64,000 nt of DNA from contig NZ_CP066779.1 of NCBI RefSeq assembly GCF_016598535.1, positions 3,472,001-3,536,000 on the forward strand. Direction: 5' to 3'. The DNA comes from Rhodococcus sp. P-2 (GTDB lineage Bacteria; Actinomycetota; Actinomycetes; Mycobacteriales; Mycobacteriaceae). Each line of letters begins with the position of its first letter. Within the stretch, counting starts at the first letter, position 1. Positions 3,876-17,652 of this stretch are shown piece after piece. A program made the translations under genes and the position numbers. The notes beneath the pieces were generated by a model. The model did not search any database and was not told the DNA's origin. It saw only the letters and a list, made by a program, of their open reading frames with translations.

Positions 3876-4733
3876 ATGGTGACGCTGACCCGCCCCGCTC
3901 GAACGGCGCCGCAGTCAGTGGAGCATCCACAACTCGAAACGCCGCGCTACCGGCGCAATCGCACCCGACCGAAGTGGATTTCGATCCCCCTCCGCTTCCT
4001 GGTTCCGGCTCTGTTGGTCGCGGGATGGTGGATCGGGTCGGCTACCGGACTGATTCGAGAGGAGATCCTGGCCGGACCTCCCGCCGTGTGGACGGCCTTC
4101 GCCGAGCTGTACCAGTCGGGCCAGTTGGTCGACTTCGGTCTCGCGTCGCTTCAACGTGCTGCACTCGGTGTTTCGGTCGGCGTGATCGTCGGATTGGTGC
4201 TCGGGGTACTCTCCGGCCTCTCCTCGCTCGGCGAAGAACTGATCGACGGGGCCATGCAGATCAACCGCGCGGTTCCGTTCCTCGCGCTCGTTCCGCTGTT
4301 CATCGCCTGGTTCGGTATCGACGAAACCTTCAAGGTGGTGCTGATCGCGGTCGCTACCGTCGCCCCGATGTACGCGTACACCTACCTGGGAGTGCGCGGG
4401 GTCGATCGCAAGATGGTCGAAGCGGCACAAGGTTTCGGCCTGACGGGTTGGCGACTGGTGTTCGGAGCAATTCTTCCGACCGCCCTCCCCGGCGCTCTGA
4501 TGGGGCTTCGGATCTGCCTCTCGCTGAGCATCACGGGATTGATCGCAGCCGAGCAGGTCGGCACCCGCGAGGGCATCGGATATCTGGTGACCCTGGCGCA
4601 GGAATACAACCGCACCGACTACATGGTTCTGTGCATCGTCATGTATGCGGCGCTGGGCCTGATTTTCGACGCCGTGGTCAGGTTGATCGAGCGGTACTCC
4701 ATGCCGTGGCGGAGATTGTCGGTGGCGCGATGA
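3876..4733 (+). CDS. SsuC-type ABC transporter permease
   Basis: The 285-residue integral membrane protein has a short cytoplasmic N-terminus and about six hydrophobic segments, beginning PLRFLVPALLVAGWWIGSAT. The BPD_transp_1 coupling region includes EAAQGFGLTGWRLVFGAILP, with TALPGALMGLRICLSLSITG following. It follows the lipoprotein gene by four bases and overlaps the ATPase gene in an ATGA, so the three form one importer. Family: SsuC/TauC/NrtB. Confidence 0.92.
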   Translation: MVTLTRPARTAPQSVEHPQLETPRYRRNRTRPKWISIPLRFLVPALLVAGWWIGSATGLIREEILAGPPAVWTAFAELYQSGQLVDFGLASLQRAALGVSVGVIVGLVLGVLSGLSSLGEELIDGAMQINRAVPFLALVPLFIAWFGIDETFKVVLIAVATVAPMYAYTYLGVRGVDRKMVEAAQGFGLTGWRLVFGAILPTALPGALMGLRICLSLSITGLIAAEQVGTREGIGYLVTLAQEYNRTDYMVLCIVMYAALGLIFDAVVRLIERYSMPWRRLSVAR

Positions 4734-5572
4734 CGAACACAGCCATCGGCTCGCTGCCATCCACCGAAGCACCTCTGCCGCCGTTGGCGACCCGCGAGCG
4801 GACCGGCACCACTGCGGCCGAGCGACGGGCCGGTTCACCAGTAGCGGTCTCACTGACCGGGGTGCGTAAGTCGTTCGGCGACAAGACCGTTCTGGGTGGC
4901 ATCGACCTCGAGATCACTCGCGGCGAGTTCGTCGTCCTCCTCGGCCCCAGCGGAACGGGCAAGACGACACTGCTGCGCGTGCTCTCCGGACTGGAAGCAC
5001 CGGACAGCGGTGAGGTGCTGGCCCCGCGCGACCGCACAGTCGTCTATCAAGAACCACGATTGATACCGTCGAAGCGAGTTCTCGCCAATGTCACAGTCGG
5101 ACAGAAGCGCTCACGGCAGGTGACCGACAACGCACGCAACGCACTCTCCGAGGTCAACCTCGCGGACAAGCACCGTGCCTGGCCGGCCACGCTCTCCGGT
5201 GGTGAGGCCCAACGCGTCGCATTGGCTCGCGCCCTCGTTCGCGAACCTGAACTGCTGCTACTCGACGAACCCTTCGCCGCACTCGACGCCCTCACGCGAC
5301 TCCAAATGCAGGACTTGGTAGGCGATCTGGTCGCCCGCCACCGTCCCGCGGTATTGCTGGTCACGCACGACGTCGACGAAGCCGTACGACTTGCCGACCG
5401 GGTACTCATTCTCGACAAGGGTGGGTTTGCCGTGGACGTCGACATCGATCTGCCACGCCCCCGCGACCGGAACGATCCCGAATCTTTGCGCTACCGAGCG
5501 AGCTTCCTGAAGGAACTCGGCGTCGGACGCACCTTCCCCGACGGACAGGACAGTCATGACATTGATCGCTGA
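4730..5572 (+). CDS. SsuB-type ABC transporter ATPase
   Basis: The 280-residue ATPase has Walker A LLGPSGTGKTT (about residues 70-80), a Q-loop (TVVYQEPRLIPSKRV), signature LSGGEAQRVALARAL, Walker B ELLLLDEPFAALDAL and switch His in LLVTHDVDEA. The start ATG at 4730 overlaps the permease stop; longer in-frame readings upstream run over permease coding sequence and are not credible. The N-terminal 40 residues before the core are low-complexity and variable in the family. It powers the importer formed with the two preceding genes. Confidence 0.93.
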   Translation: MTNTAIGSLPSTEAPLPPLATRERTGTTAAERRAGSPVAVSLTGVRKSFGDKTVLGGIDLEITRGEFVVLLGPSGTGKTTLLRVLSGLEAPDSGEVLAPRDRTVVYQEPRLIPSKRVLANVTVGQKRSRQVTDNARNALSEVNLADKHRAWPATLSGGEAQRVALARALVREPELLLLDEPFAALDALTRLQMQDLVGDLVARHRPAVLLVTHDVDEAVRLADRVLILDKGGFAVDVDIDLPRPRDRNDPESLRYRASFLKELGVGRTFPDGQDSHDIDR

Positions 5573-6599
5573 TTCCGCAATCGACACACTCTGGTACACC
5601 CGCTGCCCCGTTCCCACCGCCAGCGGCCTCGCGAACAGCCTCGGATGGCTCGACCGGACGGCAACCGAATCCGGAGTGCGTTTCGGCGTACTACAAGATG
5701 CCGGACCGGAATTGGCAGTACGCCATTTCGACCACCATCTCTCCGGACTCATTCGCGAAGGTGGCAATGTCCCGGCACTGGCCGCGCGTGCCAGTGGTTC
5801 TCCGACGAGGCTCATCGGGCTCACCTGGATCGACGAGGCCCAGGCGATCCTGGTGCGTGGAGACTCCGACATCCGAGAAGCAGGCCTGCTGGCCGGCGCC
5901 CGGATCGGAATCCCGGCGTGGGCGGCCGATCAAGCCAGGAGCTTCCCCCGCGCCATGGCCTTGCACGGGTTCGCCTCCGCGCTTCGACTGGGCGAGTTGA
6001 GTTTTGCCGACGTCACCCTCGTCGAGGTTGCAACGACGGCAGCACCTGAGGTCCGCACCGCCTCCTCGACCCGCAACACGACGTGGGGTGTCGAATCCTT
6101 GCTGCGCGGTGACGTCGACGCCATCTACGTCAAGGGCGCCCGCGCCCAGGAAGTTGCCCGCGAACACGGCCTCGCCGTAGCTGTCGACCTCGATTCCACT
6201 GCATCCCTTCGTGATCGCGTCAACAACGGCACTCCACGTCCGATCACGGTTCATGCCGATCTCCTCGAACAACGTCCGGACGTCGTCGTGGGGTTCCTCG
6301 CCGAGAGTCTAAGGGCGGCAGACTGGGCGGCGGCCAACATAGACGAGGTTCGAGCCGTTCTGCAGACCGAAACGCAGTCGGGGCCCGAGGGCGTCGTGGC
6401 AGCGTACGGCGAGAATTTCCACACTGGACTGCATTTGAGCCTGTCGGACGAGCGTGTCGATCTGCTCGGCGTGCAGAAGCAGTTCCTCTATGCGCACGGC
6501 TTCCTCGCCGCCGACTTCGACCTGCAGTCCTGGGTGGCGCACGAACCCCTCGAACAGGCCCGCGCACTGGTCGCTGCTCAGAAAGACACACTCAAATGA
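5556..6599 (+). CDS. DszB-like sulfinate desulfinase (cytoplasmic SBP-fold enzyme)
   Basis: The 347-residue protein lacks a signal peptide and aligns by eye with 2'-hydroxybiphenyl-2-sulfinate desulfinase, DszB. DTLWYTRCPVP matches DszB DTLTYSNCPVP. Cys17, His57, Arg67 and Gly70 fall where DszB has catalytic Cys27, His60, Arg70 and Gly73 (VRHF ten residues before LIREGGNVPAL). DszB hydrolyses a C-S bond to release sulfite. Overall similarity is clearly lower than to the plasmid dszB, so the substrate probably differs. The gene overlaps the ATPase stop by 17 bases and the next monooxygenase by four. A plain cytosolic binding protein is the alternative, but the catalytic set argues against it. 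Confidence 0.78.
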   Translation: MTLIADSAIDTLWYTRCPVPTASGLANSLGWLDRTATESGVRFGVLQDAGPELAVRHFDHHLSGLIREGGNVPALAARASGSPTRLIGLTWIDEAQAILVRGDSDIREAGLLAGARIGIPAWAADQARSFPRAMALHGFASALRLGELSFADVTLVEVATTAAPEVRTASSTRNTTWGVESLLRGDVDAIYVKGARAQEVAREHGLAVAVDLDSTASLRDRVNNGTPRPITVHADLLEQRPDVVVGFLAESLRAADWAAANIDEVRAVLQTETQSGPEGVVAAYGENFHTGLHLSLSDERVDLLGVQKQFLYAHGFLAADFDLQSWVAHEPLEQARALVAAQKDTLK

Positions 6600-7705
6600 C
6601 CGAGGTCTACTGGGAGCTACCCTCGCGCGGCGACGGACGCCGGGCAGTGGCCGCACTGAACAGTCGAGGCGGATTCGGCGCACAACGCCCCACCACAATC
6701 GCGACCGATGTTCGCCCCGGAAACTTCGGGCCCTTCGACGAACTGGCGCAGATCGTTCTCGCCGCCGAACTGTCTGGCGTCGACGGCGTTGTCGCACCGT
6801 ACGATCCGAACGGGGAAGAATCCTGGATCGTTGCCGCCGCCGCACTGCGTCAGACGCGTCATTCGCGAGTGGTCGTGGAATTTCATCCCACTTTCGGCAC
6901 TCCTGTCTACGCCGCCAAAATGTCTGCGACACTTCAGCGTCTGTCGGCAGGTCGTCTCGAGTGGCGAGTGAAGGTCGATACTGACGCCGAAGATGCCACC
7001 GCTCGCGGAGACGTAGTTCGAGGAACCGACCGCTACGCGCGCGCCGCGGAGTTCCTGACCGTCGCCCGTGGCGTATGGAACGAGGAACAAATTCTGCCAG
7101 GCGGATTCGGTGGCACGGGTTACGACTTCGACGGCGAATACTACGACGTGCTCGGCGGCGGATTCCGAGGCATCTTGTCGGGACTCCCTTTTCCCCGAGT
7201 GCATCTGACCGGCGATTCTCCGGAAGCTCTGGAACTGTCCGCCCACCACGGCGACGTCCATCAGTTCACGCTCGCCGGTGACGAGCTCTCGACGCGGATC
7301 ACGGCCCTCGACGACCGAGCGTCCGAACTCGGCAGGACTGTCGAGAAGGTCCTGCGCATCCCGATCATCGCGAGAGAGACAGCCGACGAAGCCTGGGCCC
7401 GCGTCGAACGGCAACTGAGAGAATCCGATTCCACTGCGTTCGAGATCGATCGGGGCGGCATCCTCTGGTCCGGATTCGACCGCATCGGTTACGAGCACAG
7501 CATCGGTCTTGTCGGAAGCTACGAGGAAGTGGCACAGCGACTCTCGTCGTATCGAGATCTCGGCGTGGACGGTTTCGTCCTGTCGGGTCGGCCACACATC
7601 GAAGAGCTGCACCGGGCGGGCGAACATCTCCTGCACCTGGTCGATCCCGAGGGTCGGATCCGCAAGGAAGAGAAGGCCACCACAGAAGAGAAGGCCACCG
7701 CATGA
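6596..7705 (+). CDS. LLM-class FMN-dependent monooxygenase, SsuD-like (first copy)
   Basis: The 369-residue luciferase-like flavin monooxygenase shows the SsuD/MsuD layout: PGNFGPFDELAQIVLAAELS, VVEFHPTFGTPVYAAKMSAT, LQRLSAGRLEWRVKVDTDAE, DRYARAAEFLTVARGVW and near the end GSYEEVAQRLSSYRDLGVDG. The usual Asn-rich stretch after GGR in SsuD (as in the next gene, YNIISGG) is replaced here by EWRVKVD, so this copy may have a different substrate or flavin contact. Its tail is a short charged repeat (KEEKATTEEKATA). It is coupled to its neighbours by four-base overlaps at both ends and would need an FMN reductase from elsewhere. Confidence 0.87.
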   Translation: MTEVYWELPSRGDGRRAVAALNSRGGFGAQRPTTIATDVRPGNFGPFDELAQIVLAAELSGVDGVVAPYDPNGEESWIVAAAALRQTRHSRVVVEFHPTFGTPVYAAKMSATLQRLSAGRLEWRVKVDTDAEDATARGDVVRGTDRYARAAEFLTVARGVWNEEQILPGGFGGTGYDFDGEYYDVLGGGFRGILSGLPFPRVHLTGDSPEALELSAHHGDVHQFTLAGDELSTRITALDDRASELGRTVEKVLRIPIIARETADEAWARVERQLRESDSTAFEIDRGGILWSGFDRIGYEHSIGLVGSYEEVAQRLSSYRDLGVDGFVLSGRPHIEELHRAGEHLLHLVDPEGRIRKEEKATTEEKATA

Positions 7706-8856
7706 GCATAGATTTCTACTGGCGGATCGGAATGGAGGGCGACCACGCGTCGCTTCGTACACCGCGTCGCTACAACCGCGGTGACGCCGGTGGATACGGG
7801 CCGGGCAACATCGCTCCCGCGATCCGGGGCGGCGAATTGGACGGATACAGCTACATCGACCACATGGCCGCGGTGGCAAAGGCTTCCGAATCCGCCGGCT
7901 TCCTCGGTGGGCTGCTGCCGTCCTTCCCGATGACCGAGGATCCGTGGGCGACCGCCGCAGCGTTGGCCGCCGAGACCACCACGTACCGTTTCATGGTTGC
8001 GTTCCAACCGGGGTTCCTTCACCCGGTCCAGGCCGCGCGGATGTCGGCCAGTCTGCAGCGCGCAACCGGTGGACGTCTGGTCTACAACATCATCAGCGGC
8101 GGAGGTGGAGCGCCTCAGCTGTGGTGGGGCGACAAGGTCGACCACGACGATCGCTACACCAGGACATCCGAGTTCCTCGATGTCCTCAAAGGTGTGTGGG
8201 ACGGTGAACCTTTCGACTTCGACGGTCGCTTCTTCCAGACCCACGGCGCCGCACTGCCACCCGGACTGGCCGGCCAACCGTTTCCCGAGGTGTACTTCTC
8301 CGGATCTTCGGCCGCAGCCGTCGCCGCCGCCGGACTGCACTCCGATTACTACCTTTCCTGGCTGGAGCCGTACGCCGATCTCAGAGCCAAGATCGACGGC
8401 GTGCGGGAGAACTCGGCCAAACTGGGACGCACGCCGAAATTCGCCGTACGCATCGACGTCGTAGCCCGGCACACCGAAGAAGCTGCGTGGGCCGAGATCG
8501 AGAAGGGGTGGGCTTTCGTCGACAAGGGCGCCGCCGACCGAGCAGCGCAGGGCGATTCGGTAGGAGCCGCCCGCATCAAAGGCTGGGTACCCGAACACAT
8601 CACCGGCTACCGGGATCTGGAGGTGCAGCCCAACGTGTGGTGCGGTTTCAGCCTGATCCGCGGAGGCCCGGCGTTCGGACTGGTCGGCAGCTACGAGCAG
8701 GTCGCCGAAAGACTCGACGAGCTGCGCGAGCTGGGCGTCGACGCCTTCATCCTGGCCGGCAACCCGCATCTCGAAGAGGCATACCGCGTCGGCGAAGAAG
8801 TTCTTCCCCTCCTGCAGCGCACCCCGATCACACCTTCTGGACTGGAGACTCGATGA
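7702..8856 (+). CDS. SsuD-like alkanesulfonate monooxygenase (second copy)
   Basis: This 384-residue member of the FMNH2-dependent SsuD family is the more canonical of the two: YNRGDAGGYGPGNIAPAIRG, FMVAFQPGFLHPVQAARMSA, SLQRATGGRLVYNIISGGGG, DHDDRYTRTSEFLDVLKGVW, and GLVGSYEQVAERLDELRELG at the C-terminus. Such enzymes cleave the C-S bond of sulfonates to sulfite plus an aldehyde. Together with the desulfinase two genes upstream it could form an oxidise-then-desulfinate route. ATGA overlaps link it to both neighbours. Confidence 0.9.
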   Translation: MSIDFYWRIGMEGDHASLRTPRRYNRGDAGGYGPGNIAPAIRGGELDGYSYIDHMAAVAKASESAGFLGGLLPSFPMTEDPWATAAALAAETTTYRFMVAFQPGFLHPVQAARMSASLQRATGGRLVYNIISGGGGAPQLWWGDKVDHDDRYTRTSEFLDVLKGVWDGEPFDFDGRFFQTHGAALPPGLAGQPFPEVYFSGSSAAAVAAAGLHSDYYLSWLEPYADLRAKIDGVRENSAKLGRTPKFAVRIDVVARHTEEAAWAEIEKGWAFVDKGAADRAAQGDSVGAARIKGWVPEHITGYRDLEVQPNVWCGFSLIRGGPAFGLVGSYEQVAERLDELRELGVDAFILAGNPHLEEAYRVGEEVLPLLQRTPITPSGLETR

Positions 8857-9560
8857 CCACCACCGAAACTAGACTCGACGCCGATACTGCAGCATTCGTC
8901 GAGGAAGCGCGCAAAGCAGCAGACAAGGCATTCGACGTCTTCCGTAAGACCGGAACGGTTGCAGCCAACGGGACCGTCAACTTCGTCGAACGCGTGCCCG
9001 GCACCGAAATCGCAGTCGCCCTGAACGATCCGGGACCGTGGGCGGACGATCCGTCGGTGTCACCGGTGGTCGCCACCTTCGACGGCGAAGTGCTGTCCGG
9101 CAACGGATCGGCCGGTTTCGTCACCGGCTACGCGTCCGTCTTCCGTCAGCATCCGGAAATCACCAGCGTTGTCCACATCCACACTCCGTGGCTCGGCGGC
9201 TGGGCACAGACTCATCGGACGCTCCCCATCCGCTATGCGGCTTCGCAGAGGCTGACGCTCTCCCGGGAGATTCCGCCGCACATCGATCGGTCCCGTTCTG
9301 CCGGCGATTTCATTCTCGAGCGTCTCGAACACGATCCCGATCTGGTGGCGATCTTCGAAGCCAACGGCGGGGTCAACGTCATCGGCCGCAGCGGGTTGCT
9401 CGACCTCGCGAAGTTCGTCGTCCTCCTCGAGGAAGGCGCACAGTTCCAGGCGATCGCCGAATCCCTCGGCGGTTCGGTCGAATTCGATTCGTCCAACCTC
9501 GCCGTCCAGTGGGGCCGTAGCGGGCTCGCCGACGAGGCGCGCCGACGCGGCCTCATCTAG
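8853..9560 (+). CDS. Class II aldolase/adducin-family protein
   Basis: The 235-residue protein has the zinc-binding signature of class II aldolases, VVHIHTPWLGGWAQTHRTLP, with His-X-His and a third His. A distal DLVAIFEANGGVNVIGRSGL replaces the usual ALLLRNHG region, and LLDLAKFVVLLEEGAQFQAI follows. It could process the carbonyl product left after C-S cleavage. The ATG at 8853 overlaps the monooxygenase stop; the open frame extends further upstream only as shadow. The distal loop lacks the usual HG end, so an altered reaction is possible. Confidence 0.83.
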   Translation: MTTTETRLDADTAAFVEEARKAADKAFDVFRKTGTVAANGTVNFVERVPGTEIAVALNDPGPWADDPSVSPVVATFDGEVLSGNGSAGFVTGYASVFRQHPEITSVVHIHTPWLGGWAQTHRTLPIRYAASQRLTLSREIPPHIDRSRSAGDFILERLEHDPDLVAIFEANGGVNVIGRSGLLDLAKFVVLLEEGAQFQAIAESLGGSVEFDSSNLAVQWGRSGLADEARRRGLI

Positions 9561-9601
9561 CCACCTCCATCACTGATTCAGAACAGGAAACCGTAGATCT
9601 C

Positions 9602-10543
9602 ATGACCGTTCGCGTCGGATACTTCCCACACAACAATTCACTGTTCGTTCTGCGCCACACCGGAATCCTCGAACGTCGTCTCCCGGATGTCGAGTGGGTG
9701 GACCTGCGCGAGCTTCCCGCCAAGCCCGCAGTCAACCCGGAGAACGCCTTGCCGACCCTGCACTCGGACTGGCTGTTCGAGGAGGGCGGATACGACGTGA
9801 TCGGAACCGGATTCACGCCGCCCGTCACCGGATTGGCTCAGGGCCGCGATCTCGTCTACATCGGAATTTCCGGCCCCCGCGTGGAGAACGGGCGCCTGGT
9901 AGTCAAAGCAGAGTCCGAGATCAACACGGTAGAGGACCTGCGCGGCAAGCGAGTCGGCATCGCGCACGGATCGTGGCAGACCACACTTCTGTTGTTCGCC
10001 TTGGATCAGGCGGGGCTGACCTGGTCCGACATCGTCCCCGTCGATACCGACGTGCGCGGTGGTGGAGCGGATCTCGTCGACGGCACCATCGATGCCTGGG
10101 TAGGTGCGTACCCGGGGCTGACGGACATCGAAGCGAACCACGAGCTGCGCACGCTGATCGCCACCGACGGGCTCTTCAGCCACCCCTCACTGTGGTTCAC
10201 CCGGCGCGATTTCGCGGAGACCAATCCGGAGGCCCTTCAGGCGATCATCGAGGCTCTGCAGGAATCCGATGCGTGGATCGAAGCCAATCCCCGCGAAGCC
10301 GCGCAGATCTTCGTCGACGACGTCGAGAAGCGTGGTGGGTCCGCAAGCCTCGATGCCTGGGAAGCTGCACTGCGCGGACGTCCTTTCGGCGTCAACCCGG
10401 TCACCGACGAGTTCCTCGACGAGCAGCAGCGGGCGGCCGATCTCCTGCTGAGCAACGGACTACTGCCGAAGGCGGTCACCGTCCGCGAAGCAGTCGTGCC
10501 GTGGATCAGCGAGTTCGTCGGTTCGGATCGTTCGTCGATCTGA
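9602..10543 (+). CDS. Signal-less SsuA/NMT1-like periplasmic-binding-fold protein
   Basis: The 313-residue protein has the SsuA/NMT1 fold pattern (YFPHNNSLFVLRHTGILE, EINTVEDLRGKRVGIAHGSW, LVDGTIDAWVGAYPGLTDIE, NPEALQAIIEALQESDAWIE) but no signal peptide or lipobox. It closes the operon, 41 bases after the aldolase gene. It resembles the upstream desulfinase in overall plan but has no cysteine, so it cannot be a DszB-type enzyme. It may be a cytosolic binding or sensing protein, or an enzyme using other residues. An exported protein with a misplaced start is unlikely, because the upstream sequence encodes no signal. Confidence 0.75.
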   Translation: MTVRVGYFPHNNSLFVLRHTGILERRLPDVEWVDLRELPAKPAVNPENALPTLHSDWLFEEGGYDVIGTGFTPPVTGLAQGRDLVYIGISGPRVENGRLVVKAESEINTVEDLRGKRVGIAHGSWQTTLLLFALDQAGLTWSDIVPVDTDVRGGGADLVDGTIDAWVGAYPGLTDIEANHELRTLIATDGLFSHPSLWFTRRDFAETNPEALQAIIEALQESDAWIEANPREAAQIFVDDVEKRGGSASLDAWEAALRGRPFGVNPVTDEFLDEQQRAADLLLSNGLLPKAVTVREAVVPWISEFVGSDRSSI

Positions 10544-10605
10544 TGACCCACAGCTGACAGATCAGCTTCACACGTGACAGATACCGGACGGTCTGCCATT
10601 GTGAA

Positions 10606-10772
10606 GAGATGCGGCGGCGCGTGGGTGAGAGTTGGTCCACGCGACCAGTCTCAGGGGTAACCCCTGGGTCGGCCAGAAGAATTGGATACTGCGTCCACCG
10701 GCGCTCGGCACGCTCCGCGTGCTTGCCGCCGCTCCGGACAAAGGATTTGGTCACCCCACGCCGCCGCATCTC
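10606..10772 (+). ncRNA. Retron msr-msd non-coding RNA locus
   Basis: About 167 nt immediately before the reverse transcriptase gene has the layout of a retron ncRNA. A perfect 14-bp inverted repeat, GAGATGCGGCGGCG (10606-10619) and CGCCGCCGCATCTC (10759-10772), continues inward as TGGGTGA/TCACCCCA with a bulge: the a1/a2 arms. Inside come a TGGTC-N5-GACCA hairpin (10633-10647) and a CAGGGG-TAA-CCCCTG hairpin (10652-10666), as in msr. A long interrupted hairpin follows from 10693 to 10739, with GCACGC-TCC-GCGTGC at its tip (10708-10722), as in msd. The branching G was not assigned; the ends and promoter are inferred. Confidence 0.78.
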
Positions 10773-10783
10773 GGGCTCGATCC

Positions 10784-12034
10784 ATGCGTGACTTCGAGCT
10801 CGATCCCGAGTTGGCGCGGCGTCTGGCAGTTGCGGCCGCTGACGCTCCATGGACACTCGGTGGACTCGAGGAGGCGTTCGGAACAGTCCACGGTGTGTCG
10901 GCGACATCGCTGGCCGTCCGGGTGCTCGATCTCATGCCCGCCCCACCGTTCGAACCTCAGACTCTGTACCGATTGCTACGCGAACTGCCGCGGCTTCGAC
11001 CCGTCCCGGTCTCGATGGACACCAACGAATCCTCGGTGTGGCGGTTCGACGTCCCGCGCTACAACACCAGTGCGGACCTAGCGCGTTCACTGGATCTGAC
11101 GATCTCCGAACTCGAGTGGTTCTCCGACCGTGGGGAGTGGCTGCGCACGAAACCATTGCAACTGCGCCACTACCGGCCGATGCAGATCAGCAAGAAGGCC
11201 GGGGCTCGCCTCCTCGAGATACCCAAACCCCGGTTGCGGGAAATCCAGCGCAAAATTCTGCGCCGCATCCTCGACCAGGTGCCCGCGCACGACGCAGCTC
11301 ATGGGTTTGTTCGCGGACGAAGTCCACTGACTTTTGCAGCGCCGCATGCACAGTCGGAAATCGTGATCGGCGTGGATCTCATGCAATTCTTCCCGTCGAT
11401 CACCGGAAACCGTGTTCACGCGGTCTTCGCCGCTCTCGGTTACCCACCCGCCGTGGCAGGAGTGCTCACCGGATTGTGCACTGTTGCAACACCTGCCGAT
11501 ACTCTGCGCGGCCTACCGTACGCACAGGCCTCACAGCTACGCACCGCGCATCTGCCACAAGGCGCGCCCACTTCGCCGGCACTGGCGAATCTCGTCGCGC
11601 GCACATTCGACATCCGCTCGAGCGCACTCGCACAGGCGAACTGGCTCACCTACACCCGATACGCCGACGACCTCGCCTTCTCCGGAATCGAAATAGCCGA
11701 CGTCAGCACCCTCCTCTGGACGATCAAGCAGATCGCCCAGGACGAAGGGTTTGCCGTACATCCGCGAAAGACCAAGGTGATGCGCCCTCATCGACGCCAA
11801 CACCTCACCGGGCTGGTGATCAACGATCAACCGTCGTATCCGCGTGACGACTACGATCGCCTGCGCGCTCTGCTGCACAATGCAGCCAGTACTTCTGCAC
11901 AGGAACAGAATCGAGCGGGAATCGAGCACTTCCGCGCCCATATCTACGGCCGGATCGCGCACATCGGCGAAACCAGCCCTACGCGCCGACGCACATTGCT
12001 GCGCCTGGCTGAACGTGTGGACTGGGACGACTAG
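10784..12034 (+). CDS. Retron-type reverse transcriptase with N-terminal extension
   Basis: The 416-residue protein has an N-terminal region of about 140 residues with no domain I recognise, then a retron/group II-like reverse transcriptase: HGFVRGRSPLTFAAPH, motif A VIGVDLMQFFPSI (Asp198), LPQGAPTSPALANLVAR, the catalytic box YADDLAFSG (293-301), HPRKTKVM and LTGLVIN, the place of the retron VTG motif. The ATG at 10784 lies 11 bases after the a2 arm; a longer frame open from 10682 would run through the ncRNA and is rejected. The enzyme should make msDNA from the adjacent RNA. The next gene converges 13 bases away, so no separate effector is present; the N-terminal region could hold one. Confidence 0.88.
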   Translation: MRDFELDPELARRLAVAAADAPWTLGGLEEAFGTVHGVSATSLAVRVLDLMPAPPFEPQTLYRLLRELPRLRPVPVSMDTNESSVWRFDVPRYNTSADLARSLDLTISELEWFSDRGEWLRTKPLQLRHYRPMQISKKAGARLLEIPKPRLREIQRKILRRILDQVPAHDAAHGFVRGRSPLTFAAPHAQSEIVIGVDLMQFFPSITGNRVHAVFAALGYPPAVAGVLTGLCTVATPADTLRGLPYAQASQLRTAHLPQGAPTSPALANLVARTFDIRSSALAQANWLTYTRYADDLAFSGIEIADVSTLLWTIKQIAQDEGFAVHPRKTKVMRPHRRQHLTGLVINDQPSYPRDDYDRLRALLHNAASTSAQEQNRAGIEHFRAHIYGRIAHIGETSPTRRRTLLRLAERVDWDD

Positions 12035-12047
12035 TGCCCGCGAGCAG

Positions 12048-12434
12048 TCAGACCCTCGGGGTGTACGCCATGCATTCGACTTCCATGTGCGCACCCAGCG
12101 CCAGTCCGTCTGTTCCGAACGCACTGCGGGCCGGCAGTCTCGACGCCGGGAAGTACTCGAGATAGACCTTGTTGAACTCCTGCCAGCGAGACATGTCGTC
12201 AAGCATGACAGTGCATTTGAAGATCGCTTCGACACCGGAACCGTAGGCGATCAGCGAAGCCACGATGTTCTCCATGGTCTGGCGGGCTTGCGCTTCGAAG
12301 CCGTCGGCCAAGGTTCCGTCGGGAAGCATGCCGATCTGACCCGACAGATACAGGACGTCTCCGACGCGAACTCCGGTGGAGAACGGTGTATCGAAAGCGG
12401 GTGGGATGAACTCGACGGTCTGAGATGAATCCAT
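12048..12434 (-). CDS. RidA/YjgF-family protein (RutC-like position)
   Basis: The 128-residue protein has the RidA pattern: FSTGVRVGDVLYLSGQIGM, ARQTMENIVASLIAYGSGVE, FKCTVMLDDMSRWQEFNKVY and a final PARSAFGTDGLALGAHMEVE. Members hydrolyse enamine/imine or aminoacrylate-type intermediates; the Arg near the end (PARSAF) matches the conserved active-site arginine. An AGGAG site precedes the ATG. It is last in an operon with an alpha/beta hydrolase and an IclR regulator. The hydrolase plus RidA pair resembles RutD plus RutC of reductive-independent pyrimidine breakdown, but no RutA/RutB lies nearby. Confidence 0.9.
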   Translation of the reverse strand: MDSSQTVEFIPPAFDTPFSTGVRVGDVLYLSGQIGMLPDGTLADGFEAQARQTMENIVASLIAYGSGVEAIFKCTVMLDDMSRWQEFNKVYLEYFPASRLPARSAFGTDGLALGAHMEVECMAYTPRV

Positions 12435-12476
12435 TAGATCTCCTCGGAAGTGGAATATGCGTGACGAGTAGGCGCT

Positions 12477-13289
12477 TCAGAGCACTGGACGGGCGCGCAC
12501 ATCGGCCAGGAAGTGCGCCACCAACTCGTTCCACGCGTGTGGGTCCTCGAAGTAGGGGGAGTGGCCGCGGTCGGCAAGTTCGACGACTTCTGCGTGAGGC
12601 AGGAATTCGGCGGCGCTGCGAATCCGATCGGGTGTCATCAGATCGTCCAGCTCGCCCGCGATCAACAGAACCGGTGCCGCCACCGCGGCAAGCTCTTCCG
12701 GCGAGTAGTTGTGGGCCTTGAGAATTCGGAAGAACTCGGTGTCCGGTGGCCGACGACCGAAGGTGCCGAGGGCTTGGTACAGGTATGCCCTCGCCATGTC
12801 CAAGCTCGGCAACCGTCCACCCACAGCGGGATGTTCCCCCAGGGGCCGCGCGGTGACGGGCGCCGCGGTGAGGGGCGGTGCACTGTCCGGACCGAAGCCG
12901 ACGGGAATGCCGCCGGTCGTGCAGGCCAGGACTACCGACTCCACTCTGTCCGGAACAGCGATCGCGGTTCCCAACGCGGCCCAACCGCCCATCGACTGGC
13001 CGACCACATGCGCTCGATCGACGTCCAGCAGGTCCATGATTTCGATCAGATCCGAGACAGCGGCTACCGGGCCGTGGTTGCCGTTCTCGTTGGTAGACCG
13101 GCCGAATCCTCGCTGATCCCAGCTGATTACCCGATAATGCTGAGCGAAGTACGGTACCTGTTGGTACCAGACCGCGGCATTGCCGCCGAGACCGTGCGTG
13201 AGAATCAGATCCGGGCCCTCGCCGGCAGTCTCGTACCAGACCCGTTCGCCGTCTGCGACGGTGATGAAGCCCTCGGTCCGTGGAATCAT
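12477..13289 (-). CDS. Alpha/beta hydrolase
   Basis: The 270-residue hydrolase has an oxyanion motif THGLGGNAAVW, the nucleophile elbow VVGQSMGGW (Ser99), an acid in PVLLIAGELDDLMTPDRI and a catalytic His in DRGHSPYFEDP (about residue 243). WDQRGFGRST is the usual region after strand 4. Its ATG overlaps the IclR stop in an ATGA, and RidA follows 42 bases on. The substrate is unknown; an ester, lactone or ring-opening role beside RidA is a guess. Confidence 0.9.
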   Translation of the reverse strand: MIPRTEGFITVADGERVWYETAGEGPDLILTHGLGGNAAVWYQQVPYFAQHYRVISWDQRGFGRSTNENGNHGPVAAVSDLIEIMDLLDVDRAHVVGQSMGGWAALGTAIAVPDRVESVVLACTTGGIPVGFGPDSAPPLTAAPVTARPLGEHPAVGGRLPSLDMARAYLYQALGTFGRRPPDTEFFRILKAHNYSPEELAAVAAPVLLIAGELDDLMTPDRIRSAAEFLPHAEVVELADRGHSPYFEDPHAWNELVAHFLADVRARPVL

Positions 13290-14068
13290 CCTTCTTCTCC
13301 TGCGTCGGACGGGCGCTTGCCCGAAGTGTGGTCAGTAAGGAGTTGCTGCACTTCATCGGTCGCCCGCAGCAGGTGTTCTTCGACCATCCCTGTCGTTTTC
13401 GCGTCGAAGTCGGTGTCGAAACCGATCACCGTCAACGCGCAGAGGGGAGAGCCCTTGCGAGAGGACACTGCCCGCGAGACCGAACCGATGATGTCCTGAG
13501 ATCGTTTGTGGACGACCGCGAATCCGGTTTTCTGCGTCTCGGCGATGTCGGCGAGGAACCCGGTGGGGCCTTCGAGTGGATAGCCACTCTTTTCCACCAT
13601 TGCCAGGTAAGGCGCCCGGGTATTGTCCTCGAGTGCCGCCACCAACGCGAGCGGTCCCGCGAACCGGTGCGGCGGAAGTAGATCCCCGAGCATCCGAGTG
13701 ATCATCTTGAGTCGCTCGGGACGCAGCGCCGCGATGATCCGAGTCCCGCCACTCTCGAGAACCTGCAGATTCACCATCATGTCCGTGCTCTCGGACAGTA
13801 CTCGCATGGTCGGATCGCACAAGGCCGCCAACGAATGCGCTGCCGCTTCGTGAGAAACCTGCAGTGCAGCCGGGCCGGGGAGATAGCGACCGTCGTAGCG
13901 GAAGACCCAACCACGGTTCGCGAGTTCTCCGAGTACTCGGTGCGCAGTCGGCCGGAGCATCCCGACTTCTTCTGCCAGCTCACTGAGCTTCATCGGCGTG
14001 GTCGAGCGCGCGATGGCCTCGAGTAGATCCAGCGCTTTGTCGACGGCGGACGCAGAACCCTTCGTCAT
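13286..14068 (-). CDS. IclR-family transcriptional regulator (second)
   Basis: The 260-residue regulator has an HTH at about residues 7-65 (VDKALDLLEAIARSTTPMKL, SELAEEVGMLRPTAHRVLGE) and an IclR effector domain ending in SRAVSSRKGSPLCALTVIGF. It is first in an operon with the hydrolase and RidA genes, and divergent from an NMT1-type ABC importer. The intergenic region has a TTCCG-N5-CGGAA dyad just downstream of a good promoter, a likely operator. The effector is unknown. Confidence 0.9.
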   Translation of the reverse strand: MTKGSASAVDKALDLLEAIARSTTPMKLSELAEEVGMLRPTAHRVLGELANRGWVFRYDGRYLPGPAALQVSHEAAAHSLAALCDPTMRVLSESTDMMVNLQVLESGGTRIIAALRPERLKMITRMLGDLLPPHRFAGPLALVAALEDNTRAPYLAMVEKSGYPLEGPTGFLADIAETQKTGFAVVHKRSQDIIGSVSRAVSSRKGSPLCALTVIGFDTDFDAKTTGMVEEHLLRATDEVQQLLTDHTSGKRPSDAGEEG

Positions 14069-14132
14069 CCGATCCCCTCCCGGTGCCGTGTGAGTACCCG
14101 GCGATCCGAAATCTCGTGTTCTTGGAAAACCC

Positions 14133-14187
14133 TTGGCATTCGCCTAGGAAATTACTATAGTCACAACAATCGTTCCGGCGTACGGAA
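14133..14187 (+). promoter_or_regulatory. Promoter and IclR-type operator for the second ABC importer
   Basis: A TTGGCA box (14133-14138), a 17-base spacer and TATAGT (14156-14161) form a good sigma-70-like promoter facing the importer genes. Just downstream, at about +5 to +20, lies TTCCGGCGTACGGAA (14173-14187), a perfect 5-bp dyad with a 5-base spacer. A repressor there would block initiation; the divergent IclR protein is the obvious candidate. Confidence 0.5.
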
Positions 14188-14263
14188 TTCTTTGAGCGTC
14201 TTCACCTTCCCACCGGATTACCGGCAAGGAAGTCCTATCTTTCCCAGCGAGAGGCTTTCGGAC

Positions 14264-15268
14264 ATGACGGTTGGACATACCCTTCGGTCGACACCACGGT
14301 TCAGAGTTGTTGCCCTGGCAGCGGTCGCGACGGCTGCCTTGGCACTGACCGGCTGTTCGAGCGACGCCACGGCCTCCGACGACGGGGGCACCCAGACCAC
14401 CACGATTCGTATCGCACCTCAACCGATCGCGGACTTCGCACCGATCTGGCTGGGTATGGAGCAGGGATTCTTCACCGCTGAGGGACTCGACATTCAGCTC
14501 GTCGAGGGCGGAGCCAGTTCCTCGGCTCAGATTCCGTTGCTGCTCAGCGGAAATGCAGATATGGCAGCCACGACTGCCGCTGCCGCAATTCAGGCACGCA
14601 GCCAGAACATGCCCGTCACCATCGTCGGAGGGCTCACGAATTTTGCCGCGAATGACGATGTCGACCAATCCGGTCTCGTTGTCGCCAAGGACAGTTCCGT
14701 CAGTGGATTCCGTGACCTCGAAGGCAAAACCGTTGCGATCAGCGGTTTGAAGTCTGTCAGCGAGGCGGTCATCTCTGCCGCGGTGGAGAAATCCGGCGGA
14801 GCAGCCGACAAGGTCTCGTTCATCCAAGCGCCCATGCCCAACCTCGGTGACCTTGTTTCCACTGGCGGAGCCGATGCAGCATTCCTCATCGATCCGTTCC
14901 TGAGCAAGGCAACCGACTCCGGGCTGAAGATCCTCGGCCACCCCTTCCCCCTGGCCGCACCCGGCGTGCCAGGAACCTCGCTGGTCGCTTCGGAATCGTT
15001 TGTCGACGCGAACCCCGACTCTCTCGCTAAATTCCGTACGGCGCTTGCCAAATCGGTCGACTACGCCAATCAGAATCCGGGCGCGGTCAAGGCTGCACTC
15101 TCGACACAAGCCAAGATTCCGCTCGAAATGCTGGCCAACAGCAAGAATCCTCAGTTCGTCGCAGTAGTGGAACCTGGCACTCTCGGCACGGAGATCGAAC
15201 TGTTGGTCAAGTACGGGGTTCTGACGGAGTCGGTCGATACCGAATCCTTGCTGACCCCGGCCAACTGA
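14264..15268 (+). CDS. NMT1/SsuA-type ABC substrate-binding lipoprotein
   Basis: This 334-residue lipoprotein has a signal sequence RFRVVALAAVATAALALTGC with a canonical lipobox (Cys31). The mature domain is NMT1/SsuA-like: APIWLGMEQGFFTAEGLDIQ, LLLSGNADMAATTAAAAIQA, SGFRDLEGKTVAISGLKSVS and VDANPDSLAKFRTALAKSVD. I chose the ATG at 14264 because it gives a normal lipoprotein signal; the frame is open to 14090, but that would cover the promoter. It belongs with two permeases and an ATPase. Ligands of this family include sulfonates, nitrate, thiamine-precursor pyrimidines and riboflavin. Confidence 0.9.
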   Translation: MTVGHTLRSTPRFRVVALAAVATAALALTGCSSDATASDDGGTQTTTIRIAPQPIADFAPIWLGMEQGFFTAEGLDIQLVEGGASSSAQIPLLLSGNADMAATTAAAAIQARSQNMPVTIVGGLTNFAANDDVDQSGLVVAKDSSVSGFRDLEGKTVAISGLKSVSEAVISAAVEKSGGAADKVSFIQAPMPNLGDLVSTGGADAAFLIDPFLSKATDSGLKILGHPFPLAAPGVPGTSLVASESFVDANPDSLAKFRTALAKSVDYANQNPGAVKAALSTQAKIPLEMLANSKNPQFVAVVEPGTLGTEIELLVKYGVLTESVDTESLLTPAN

Positions 15269-15269
15269 G

Positions 15270-16061
15270 TTGTCCGCCTTGACAACCCCGAAAACACGCC
15301 GCAGGCAGGTACTGCTCGGACGGCTGCTGACGCTCTTCGCGCTGGCAGCCGCCTGGCAGGTCTTCGGAATGCTGGGCGACGAGAATGTCAAGGGTGTTCC
15401 GAAGTTCAGTGACGTGGCAGTGGCGTTCGTCGACGAACTCGGTACCTCTTCGCTGTGGACGTCATTGGGACAGACGTTGACCACAACCGCCATCGGCTTG
15501 GCGCTGTGTCTGGTGATCGGAATCCCGGCAGGACTGCTGCTCGCCGCGCACCCGTTCCTGACAGTCTCTTCGCGCTTCGTCATCGACTTCTGCAGGACCG
15601 TTCCGCCGCTCGCGATCATTCCCCTCTTTCTGTTGATCATGGGCCCGACGCAACGTATGGCGGTTGCGCTGATCGTGGCGGTGAGCGTGTGGCCGATTCT
15701 GCTCCAGACCATCCACGGAGTACGCAACGTCGATCCGGAACTACTGGCCACCGCACGATCCTTCCGACTTCCACTGTGGCGCAGACTCGCTCTCGTCGTC
15801 GCGCCCGCGTCGATGCCCTACATCTTCACGGGAATTCGTATCTCGGCAACACTGAGTTTGCTGCTGACCATCGGCGCCGAACTGATCGCCGGCGTTCCCG
15901 GACTCGGCAAGGAAATCCTGCTGAGCCAATCCGTCCCGGACCGAATGTTTGCACTCATCGTCGTCGCCGGAGTGCTCGGCATGCTGCTCGCGTTCGCTGT
16001 GATGGCAATCGAGAATCGTTTACTTGCTTGGCATTACATCCCGAGGAGGATGACGACGTGA
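15270..16061 (+). CDS. ABC transporter permease, SsuC family (first of two)
   Basis: The 263-residue membrane protein starts from a TTG directly after the lipoprotein stop. It has about six membrane segments and the EAA-type loop LLATARSFRLPLWRRLALVV. Its sequence is clearly different from the next permease, so the importer probably uses a heterodimeric pair, as in two-permease systems such as RibXY-type or ThiX-type importers. It overlaps the next gene in a GTGA. Confidence 0.88.
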   Translation: MSALTTPKTRRRQVLLGRLLTLFALAAAWQVFGMLGDENVKGVPKFSDVAVAFVDELGTSSLWTSLGQTLTTTAIGLALCLVIGIPAGLLLAAHPFLTVSSRFVIDFCRTVPPLAIIPLFLLIMGPTQRMAVALIVAVSVWPILLQTIHGVRNVDPELLATARSFRLPLWRRLALVVAPASMPYIFTGIRISATLSLLLTIGAELIAGVPGLGKEILLSQSVPDRMFALIVVAGVLGMLLAFAVMAIENRLLAWHYIPRRMTT

Positions 16062-16846
16062 AGATGATGTCCGGGATTCGACTCCTCGCGTGGGAGTTGT
16101 GGCTGCCGATCTTGATCGTCGTCGTGTGGTACTTCGGATCCGCGTCGAGTAAGTCGCCGTACTTTCCGCCGTTGTCACGAATCTGGAAAGCATTTGTGGA
16201 CAACTGGTTCGGTGCAGGCTTTACTCGAGATGTCGTACCCAGCCTGACCAATCTTGCCTTCGGCCTCACCGTGGCGCTGGTGCTCGGCATCGGGGTCGGT
16301 CTGCTTCTTGCTCTGTTCCCACTGGCTGCCGACATCGCTGATCCGTTCCTCCAGTTCTTCCGCGCCATACCCGCACTCGCTGTACTGCCGGCCCTGTTCA
16401 TCGTCTTCGGTACTGGTTCCTCGGGCAACGTCGCCGCCATCGCTTTCGGCGCGGTCTGGCCGATACTCCTCAACACCCTCGACGGCATTCGCTCCATCGA
16501 CCCGAGTATCCGCTTGGTGGCGCGCAGCTATCGCATCCGAACGCCCCTGCTGGTCACGCAGGTACTCCTCCCCGGAGCGATGCCTCAGATAACGGTCGGC
16601 ATCCGTACCAGTCTCGCGATCGGCGTCGTCATCATGGTCGGCAGCGAAATGTACGTCTCCACTGCAGGAATCGGCCACTTCGTGATCGTCGCGCAACAGA
16701 CGTTTGCCATCGCAGACATGTGGTCCGGAATCCTCCTGCTCGGAATCATCGGGTACGTGCTCAACGTCGGCTATGGCGTGATCGAACGTTGGTTGCTCAG
16801 ATGGCAGCCTCGGACCCACGGCGCACTCGCAGTGAAAGGAAACTGA
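16058..16846 (+). CDS. ABC transporter permease, SsuC family (second of two)
   Basis: The 262-residue permease starts from a GTG at 16058 with GAGGAGG seven bases upstream; the frame open further upstream is an internal shadow of the first permease. Membrane segments include LWLPILIVVVWYFGSA and LTVALVLGIGVGLLLALFPL. The coupling loop is SIRLVARSYRIRTPLLVTQV. It overlaps the ATPase start by one base. Confidence 0.9.
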   Translation: MKMMSGIRLLAWELWLPILIVVVWYFGSASSKSPYFPPLSRIWKAFVDNWFGAGFTRDVVPSLTNLAFGLTVALVLGIGVGLLLALFPLAADIADPFLQFFRAIPALAVLPALFIVFGTGSSGNVAAIAFGAVWPILLNTLDGIRSIDPSIRLVARSYRIRTPLLVTQVLLPGAMPQITVGIRTSLAIGVVIMVGSEMYVSTAGIGHFVIVAQQTFAIADMWSGILLLGIIGYVLNVGYGVIERWLLRWQPRTHGALAVKGN

Positions 16847-17652
16847 TGTCATCCACAGAATCTGCGGCATCCACCCCCGCAGTCGAACTGAACGGCCTCG
16901 GGGTGACGTACGGCGGACCTACCGGCCGCGAAGTGCTTCGCGGGATCGATCTCTCGGTTGCACCCGGAGAAATCGTCTGCATCGTCGGACATTCCGGTAT
17001 CGGCAAAAGCACCCTGATTCGGTGCATCGCCGGTTTGCAGAAGCCGACCACGGGTGAGGTCCGCATCGCCGATATCGCGATCGACGCTCCGCCCGCCACT
17101 CTTGCGCTCGTGTCACAGGATTACGGACGCACACTGATGCCCTGGCTTCGAGTGGGCGAGAACGTTCGCCTGCCGCTGCGGGGCAACGGCCTGGCACGCA
17201 AGGTTCAGAACGAGAGGGTAACCGAGGCGCTCGCCGTCGTCGGTCTGGAAGGAGCTGCGCGTTCCTACCCCTGGCAATTGTCCGGCGGAATGCAGCAGCG
17301 GGTAGCGATCGCTCGCGCCCTCGCCTATCGGCCGCAGGTACTACTCATGGACGAACCCTTTGCATCGGTCGACGCCCAGACCCGCGCGGAACTCGAGAAC
17401 CTGCTGCTGACGCTTCAACGTGATCTTGGCATCACCGTCCTCCTCGTCACCCACGACGTCGACGAATCGGTGTACCTGTCCGATCGAGTGGTCGTCCTCG
17501 GCGGAACGCCGGCGTTGATGCAGGACATCGTCGACGTTCCGTTGATCGGTGCTCGGGACCAACTGACCACCAAGGCGGACCCACTGTTCATCGAGTGTCG
17601 TACCAGGGTTCTGTCCGCGATCCAGCAGTCGAAGGTGGTGGCGCCCGTGTAG
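16846..17652 (+). CDS. ABC transporter ATPase (NrtD/SsuB family)
   Basis: The 268-residue ATPase has Walker A CIVGHSGIGKSTLIRCI, Q-loop LVSQDYGRTLMPWLRVGENV, signature LSGGMQQRVAIARAL, Walker B VLLMDEPFASVDAQTRAE and switch His VLLVTHDVDESV. The ATG at 16846 shares its A with the permease TGA and has GAAAGGA seven bases upstream. It completes a four-gene importer; no enzyme gene follows, so the ligand must be inferred from the divergent hydrolase/RidA operon. Confidence 0.93.
   Translation: MSSTESAASTPAVELNGLGVTYGGPTGREVLRGIDLSVAPGEIVCIVGHSGIGKSTLIRCIAGLQKPTTGEVRIADIAIDAPPATLALVSQDYGRTLMPWLRVGENVRLPLRGNGLARKVQNERVTEALAVVGLEGAARSYPWQLSGGMQQRVAIARALAYRPQVLLMDEPFASVDAQTRAELENLLLTLQRDLGITVLLVTHDVDESVYLSDRVVVLGGTPALMQDIVDVPLIGARDQLTTKADPLFIECRTRVLSAIQQSKVVAPV

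Follow-up and report, generated by a model that had tools for sequence, protein, structure and literature searches.

Retrons are described, in the passages of PMC12548924 and PMC12262390 that deal with their make-up, as units of a reverse transcriptase (RT), a non-coding RNA (ncRNA) and an effector. Retron-Bth1 of Bacillus thuringiensis has no apparent effector gene and yet makes RT-DNA, as reported in part of PMC12548924; it is a single case, located on an extrachromosomal element and with an RT interrupted by a group II intron. Myxobacterial retrons (Mx162, Mx65, Sa163 and Ne144) carry an extended N-terminus whose function is not known, and many are inherited largely vertically, according to parts of PMC6868368. 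In Rhodococcus, the relevant parts of two genome papers (PMC7276702, PMC6498646) mention a retron-type RT only in passing. The present work deals with a retron of Rhodococcus sp. P-2, located at 10606-12034 of a stretch of 64,000 nucleotides of contig NZ_CP066779.1 (positions 3,472,001 to 3,536,000), hereafter the window. The retron had been noticed in an earlier reading of the letters alone (the sequence-only reading), which also held that retrons are little studied in this genus, in agreement with the literature above. In the literature searched, which did not extend to the main retron classification, no description of this ncRNA or of an effector-free actinobacterial retron family was found.

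The locus is best explained as a genuine two-part retron formed, as far as the locus shows, by a structured ncRNA and an RT with an N-terminal helical domain of its own; a probability of about 0.7 is given to this reading. It is carried by the ncRNA structure with its one-to-one pairing of ncRNA and RT in the family, by the profile and fold of the RT, by purifying selection, and by the conservation, over many contexts and two phyla, of a unit to which no effector is linked. Judged from sequence, the new elements would be an ncRNA family of its own, a conserved two-part unit without linked effector and the N-terminal RT domain. In contrast to the single case of Bth1, the Rhodococcus unit is a conserved family. 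Going by their descriptions, the myxobacterial retrons resemble it in the extended N-terminus and the vertical inheritance, whereas relocation and decay are seen in the Rhodococcus family as well.

The sequence-only reading had reported perfect 14-bp inverted arms, two short hairpins and one long hairpin before the RT gene, and all of them were recovered. The first arm (10606-10619) reads GAGATGCGGCGGCG, and the second (10759-10772) is complementary to it at every position; together they form the a1/a2 pair, the only perfect 14-bp inverted repeat with a spacing of 100-200 nt in the window. As a control, the window was simulated 20 times by a first-order Markov model, and one simulation held such a repeat. 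The helix is extended inward by GGGTGA/TCACCC. A folding energy of -93 kcal/mol (z -5.2) was obtained for 10602-10775, and none of 200 shuffles was equally stable. An outer pairing of the msd (10692-10696 with 10735-10739) appeared only in the folds of some relatives (L035, L037 and L038). The ATG of the RT lies eleven bases downstream of a2. Rfam gave no match in the window at the gathering score, and none at E <= 5 in 10560-10830. The elements of the unit are the following:

10571-10605, plus strand: 5' flank of the unit (cacgtgacagataccggacggtctgccattgtgaa), conserved; homology with L038, which lies in another context, starts here
10606-10619, plus strand: a1 arm, outer helix; exact complement of a2, present in the fold, with compensatory changes
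10623-10628, plus strand: GGGTGA, inner continuation of the a1 helix; paired to 10751-10756
10629, plus strand: candidate priming (branch) guanosine, directly 3' of the last a1/a2 pair
10633-10647, plus strand: msr hairpin 1, from the fold; shifted by two bases, to 10631-10649, in the family model
10650-10668, plus strand: msr hairpin 2 (CTCAGGGGTAACCCCTGGG), from the fold; the most conserved element of the ncRNA
10699-10731, plus strand: msd hairpin core, tip GCACGCTCCGCGTGC at 10708-10722; putative extent of the part copied into DNA
10749-10752, plus strand: nearly invariant GGTC, where reverse transcription is expected to start; extends into a2
10751-10756, plus strand: inner part of the a2 helix, TCACCC; pairs with 10623-10628
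10759-10772, plus strand: a2 arm; exact complement of a1, with compensatory changes
10784-12034, plus strand: retron-type RT, 416 aa, intact; ATG at 10784, stop at 12032-12034
10784-11023, plus strand: N-terminal part of the RT, with a helical domain (residues ~1-70) and a flexible linker (72-83)

The same RNA recurs upstream of the relatives of the RT. When 19 sequences were aligned by plain MAFFT, unfitted to any structure, RNAalifold gave 44 pairs, 19 of them with compensatory changes. A covariance model, which the sequence-only reading had proposed as a check, was built from these 19 sequences and found the RNA upstream of the RT in all 63 family loci searched, 62 of them at E <= 0.01 and L131 with the filters off (33.7 bits). 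Outside the training set, 43 of 44 loci were recovered at E <= 0.01. The class-level loci given to the model were seven (L126-L132), the weaker L133-L148 being left out. In the 62-row covariance-model alignment of ncRNA loci (A5), 94.3% of the cells were paired (76.2 when shuffled), 38 of 44 pairs showed a compensatory double change (25.4), 427 cells carried double changes (102.6) and the covariation score was 0.498 (0.153), with 0/500 shuffles as good in each case; these pair counts lean towards structure because A5 was fitted to its own model, so that the unfitted count of 19 sequences is the more cautious figure. Slid controls of A5 had 35-48% of the cells paired.

Compensatory change was found in all 16 pairs of the a1/a2 helices (helices 1-2; 95-98% of the cells paired over 62 loci), in 5/5 pairs of msr hairpin 1 (helix 3; 89.6% of the cells) and in 10 of the 11 pairs of the msd helices 6-7. 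The second msr hairpin (helix 4) was also supported by covariation, with 99.8% of the cells paired. Positions that are near-invariant (>= 95%) in A5 are G10627, A10628 and G10629, most of the CAGGGG..ACCCCTGG hairpin, the msd tip GCT.CGCG and the GGTC at 10749-10752. A guanosine was present at 10629 in 19/19 initial sequences and in 61 of 62 rows of A5 (column 23), and the site matches the position rule for the priming guanosine of retrons given in part of PMC6868368. The context of this base is mostly (U/C)GA-G in the Rhodococcus family, whereas TAGC is the most common one in the corresponding part of PMC6868368, where GAGC (Mx65) and CAGA (Ec67) are listed as variants.

The ncRNA and the RT were found in the same genomes. 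The RNA model matched 41 of 121 family genomes, seven of which had supplied model sequences, and the RT search matched 44; the 41 RNA-bearing genomes all carry the RT, and the three matches of the RT search alone were weak (E 8.7e-5 to 9.5e-4). Each of the 41 genomes gave a single RNA match. Outside the family sample, the model scored 114 bits in a Dietzia record and 83 bits in a Tsukamurella record. In the second Rhodococcus group (L039-L044) the likely RT start codon lies 2 nt past a2, so that the ribosome-binding region would be hidden once the ncRNA folds, and coupling of RNA folding to RT translation is possible there. The public gene calls P0021, P0045 and P0120 begin upstream, inside the apparent ncRNA, and their annotated N-termini are therefore probably wrong.

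Two of the RT motifs named in the sequence-only reading, YADD (residues 293-296, window 11660-11671) and LTG (residues 341-343, as read off the translation), are present in the intact protein. Of the NAxxH-like motif the histidine stood and the asparagine did not: residues 184-188 read FAAPH, and His188 is invariant in an alignment of 54 RTs. Within this alignment FAxPH-like forms occur in 49 sequences and LTG or LAG forms at domain 7; strict NAxxH and strict VTG occur in none. Among retron-like RTs, NAXXH is present in 59%, VTG in 47% and I/L variants in 26%, according to the motif section of PMC4244168; the strict forms are thus not required of retron RTs. An alanine at the second position (LAG) is absent from the motif description in that section. 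On sequence, the region X/Y signatures (His of NAXXH; x-[TA]-G) fall within the published range.

The best profiles for the RT were PADLOC RT_other (PDLC02949; 577 bits, residues 6-415 on profile positions 67-471 of 481) and RT_outgroup (PDLC03740; 543 bits, residues 8-414 on 5-407 of 407), both near full length and with the N-terminal region included. They were also the best profiles for five relatives, one Burkholderia RT and one Dietzia RT. The RT family is therefore already known in PADLOC, but as an RT profile only; the present work adds the ncRNA, the minimal unit and the absence of a linked effector. The next best typed profile, RT_XIII, scored more than 200 bits below RT_other (324 against 577) and covered residues 79-411 only; by RT profile the protein falls outside type XIII, and at the Rhodococcus-family loci no recurrent partner gene was seen. 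Retron RTs came first among the PDB sequences matched to the RT, and in the fold comparison they filled ranks 1-18 (VIA, ranks 1-14). Profile and predicted fold together support placing the RT with the retron RTs. A position outside retrons, which the sequence-only reading had named as a finding that would speak against it, was indicated by neither; with the strong covariation and the pairing of ncRNA and RT, its assignment of the locus to the retrons has held. Retron-Ec86 (Eco1) is a type II-A retron. Its RT shares 33% identity with the window RT over the aligned core, and the alignment starts at residue 81 of the latter, the first 80 residues being without an Ec86 counterpart. An effector belongs to Ec86, as the title of 7v9x shows, whereas the Rhodococcus unit has none linked to it.

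The sequence-only reading had suggested that an effector might lie in 140 unrecognised N-terminal residues. In the predicted structure the start of the RT fold lies near residue 81. An effector within residues ~81-140 was rejected since this segment falls inside the fold; the unrecognised part thus shrinks to about 80 residues, which weakens the suggestion. Structure prediction of the N-terminus, proposed as a further check, was informative in part: the start of the RT fold was located, and residues 1-81 modelled alone by AlphaFold without an alignment gave a poor result, with a predicted local distance difference test score (pLDDT) of 52. The linker (residues 72-83) has a pLDDT below 50. The small helical domain has no Pfam match. 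It was present in 110/110 RTs with a length of 390 aa or more among the best 120 relatives listed, and 24 of the 25 matches of its profile in 121 genomes lay in RT loci; in the genomes sampled it would seem to occur only with these RTs. The four positions that are invariant in 14 aligned sequences (W, L, P and P) look structural. The mean frequency of the top residue was 0.41-0.50 in the domain and 0.63-0.71 in the RT domain. Against five close relatives of the window RT, the ratio of nonsynonymous to synonymous substitution rates (dN/dS) of the domain was 0.00-0.10.

The gene neighbourhood was compared in 56 loci (window, L034-L053 and L090-L124). In the window, the retron is flanked by a catabolic and transport gene cluster (3974-10543 and 12048-17652), in which Pfam matched an NMT1-like protein, RidA and an alpha/beta hydrolase, and open reading frames (ORFs) read as ABC transporter parts and flavin-monooxygenase-like genes. 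As the sequence-only reading had stated, the next gene is metabolic and convergent, 13 bases away: it belongs to the RidA family (12048-12434, minus strand) and ends at 12048. An NMT1 homologue without a retron exists in G004, and RidA homologues without a retron exist as well. Over the 56 loci, 33 upstream and 33 downstream neighbour families occurred in 39 combinations (contexts), and no partner gene recurred across them; the earlier claim that a separate effector is missing agrees with this. A PADLOC scan of the 106 immediate neighbours returned 11 families, the most frequent being PD-T4-2_B (5/106), and no recurrent retron effector. The next gene starts less than 60 nt past the RT end in 27/56 loci. 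In 49/56 loci, which are not independent, the gene upstream of the retron reads in the same direction as it does, so that in most cases the unit follows the 3' end of a co-directional gene.

Some neighbours were considered as partners and rejected. RidA makes up 8 of the 106 neighbour proteins; its gene follows the retron in the R. erythropolis group but precedes it in some members of the second Rhodococcus group (L040, L044); since the sides are opposite and other contexts are without RidA, its adjacency is probably a coincidence. The most widespread neighbour was a DnaE-type DNA polymerase (13/56 loci), probably dnaE2; the retron lies downstream of this gene in L090-L092, L099, L100, L103, L108, L110, L113, L114, L117, L120 and L122, often with a SpoU-methylase-like gene nearby. 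In L101 and L118 the retron follows polA. The polymerases (polymerase III alpha domains in 12/106 neighbours, PolA in 2/106) were rejected as partners, since they look like positions inherited in some genera and not like a general link. Among the neighbours, the one match to a retron effector profile, ATPase-Toprim_I-B at L049 (E 3e-8), was a single ABC-type ATPase of 243 aa beside a broken RT. On sequence, the lack of an effector in cis holds at the loci examined and not only at the window locus. Because a linked or fused effector is absent at the 56 loci, the retron was not assigned to any typed tripartite system.

The limits of the unit are sharp. Where both flanks differ, homology is confined to flank, ncRNA and RT (~1.45 kb) and ends at the RT end: relative to the ATG, the shared block spans -213..+1241 between the window and L038, -224..+1233 between L040 and L041, and -194..+1238 between L039 and L040. 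The window and L036 are homologous throughout, on both flanks. The promoter is likely to lie inside the 5' flank (10571-10605). Among Burkholderia plasmid records, L149 shares 1533 bp with L153 and 1560 bp with L154, in blocks that start 13-43 bases before the ncRNA and end within 11 bases of the RT stop. In Burkholderia L149 and Dietzia L151, none of the neighbouring genes is annotated as a retron effector, in a gene table that is incomplete. The retron is absent between the SDR and H-NS genes in two B. multivorans records. No target-site signature for mobility was seen, though no systematic search was made. The Tsukamurella plasmid record carries polA and rpsA and may be chromosomal. At 2623-4103 of L155, a plasmid of Burkholderia pyrrocinia BX1, nothing but a 3' remnant of the RT is left, beside a transposase, at a place where the whole unit stands in relatives. 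A stretch like RT residues 90-116 (63%) is present at G161:C30:14868-14948, the rest being absent and the RNA unmatched; it is possibly a relic of a lost retron.

RT relatives were detected in 27/61 genomes, the own genome included, and at class level in 20 of 246, 11 of them with a best E below 1e-20. Broken copies were found in the genus (G014, G018 and G023) and in the family (G062 and G099). In the RT tree (48 rows from the 56 loci; five broken RTs were excluded and three failed the ORF filter) Rhodococcus splits into two groups, and the tree mostly follows genera, with 14 label changes against a minimum of 13, which points to largely vertical inheritance. Whole-RT dN/dS was 0.06-0.10 for the window against five close relatives and 0.13-0.17 in the second Rhodococcus group, where codon alignment gave 0.13-0.14 for the L040 pairs. 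The RT is under purifying selection. Taken together, the sequences point to a dispensable unit whose inheritance is mostly vertical, with an occasional change of location.

Based on these features, a mechanism can be proposed. The transcript would fold with a1 paired to a2, and the RT would recognise the msr hairpins and prime from the 2'-OH of G10629. By analogy with Ec86, copying would start near 10749 and stop near 10685-10692, and the product would be a multicopy single-stranded DNA (msDNA) of ~60 nt. The RT-msDNA complex may then act as a sensor or guard in phage defence, the executor being a host or unlinked protein reached via the N-terminal domain, or else the complex itself. By analogy with other retrons, a function in phage sensing is the most likely one.

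Several observations weigh against the reading as a two-part retron. The neighbour genes of the 56 loci were called by a simple in-house script, and some pairs of loci share one flank as well (L037/L038 to +1566, L041/L042 to +3027). No sigma-70 consensus match was found for the promoter of the unit, so that its place in the 5' flank is an inference only. In the RNA, helix 5 (10683-10686 with 10694-10697), between msr and msd, was weakly supported, with 72% of the cells paired. RTs kept without the arms, named in the sequence-only reading as evidence against a retron, were not seen in the 63 family loci; a more distant RT, from Methylobacterium (L152, 40% identical), had no RNA match, and the RNA scores of three Burkholderia records were modest (28-32 bits at the expected place, the next best elsewhere being 19.9). 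Of the 41 family genomes with an RT, only 24 gave a match to the profile of the N-terminal domain, no detectably related domain was found in Burkholderia (0/114), and the dN/dS of the domain was 0.16 and 0.38 in two pairs from the second Rhodococcus group, a weaker constraint. No NCBIfam model reached its curated cut-off, retron St85 scoring 175 of 235 bits. Of 28 Rhodococcus genomes, the own one included, 11 gave no RT match, and among the 17 matches three are split by a frameshift or stop and one by contig ends. These losses and broken copies, and the plasmid records of the unit, also fit a dispensable or selfish element.

The strongest rival, although an unlikely one, is a tripartite retron with its toxic effector gene at another place in the genome, the linkage in cis having been lost or never needed. 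The published descriptions of retrons as RT, ncRNA and effector fit it, and a local search is blind to unlinked genes. Nothing was found in the immediate neighbourhood, which was the part searched, and the spread of the unit over 39 contexts and the Burkholderia, Dietzia and Tsukamurella records means that an obligate unlinked partner would be needed in every recipient. A single-gene retron, with the N-terminal domain (residues 1-70) as the effector, is improbable. Its presence in all the long RTs listed, its near confinement to RT loci, the flexible linker and the low dN/dS among close relatives would suit an effector, but the domain has only ~70 residues and no Pfam match, its invariant positions look structural, it varies more than the RT domain, its constraint is weaker in two pairs from the second Rhodococcus group, and a role in binding RNA or protein is at least as likely.

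An equally doubtful account is that of a selfish or neutral minimal retroelement, which is of no benefit to its host and is maintained by moving from time to time. Such an element would explain the many contexts, the sharp block ends, the plasmid records, the broken copies and the absence from part of the genus. The low dN/dS of the whole RT and the near-vertical tree argue against it, and no mobilising enzyme recurs among the best 25 of 91 neighbour Pfam families (the 25th at 2/106); the single RNA match per genome indicates that the unit does not multiply. Finally, an RT of the abortive infection (Abi), diversity-generating retroelement (DGR), group II or defence-associated RT (DRT) type beside an unrelated RNA is very improbable. 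It could draw on the missing strict NAxxH and VTG motifs and on the NCBIfam scores, but these motifs are not strict in retron-like RTs in the part of PMC4244168 cited above, retron RTs rank first by profile and fold, and the ncRNA shows the full retron anatomy with covariation, so that this account seems refuted as far as a sequence can refute it. The two-part retron is preferred over all of these. That RT and ncRNA are in themselves the complete system, which would make a large effector-free class across phyla with the RT-msDNA complex as the working agent (in Actinomycetota together with the N-terminal domain), is a tentative step beyond it. Just as tentatively, that agent might be a decoy, a regulator of a host protein or a self-contained defence unit.

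The finding amounts to a well-bounded unit of ~1.5 kb, present in 41 of 121 sampled family genomes and also in a second phylum, without a linked effector. With it, one can test directly, in a soil bacterium, whether a retron is able to function when it has no effector of its own. If msDNA is made, the covariation-backed ncRNA would provide an actinobacterial retron backbone for DNA production in hosts of high G+C content. If RT and ncRNA are indeed complete, retrons need not be tripartite systems of a toxin-antitoxin-like kind.
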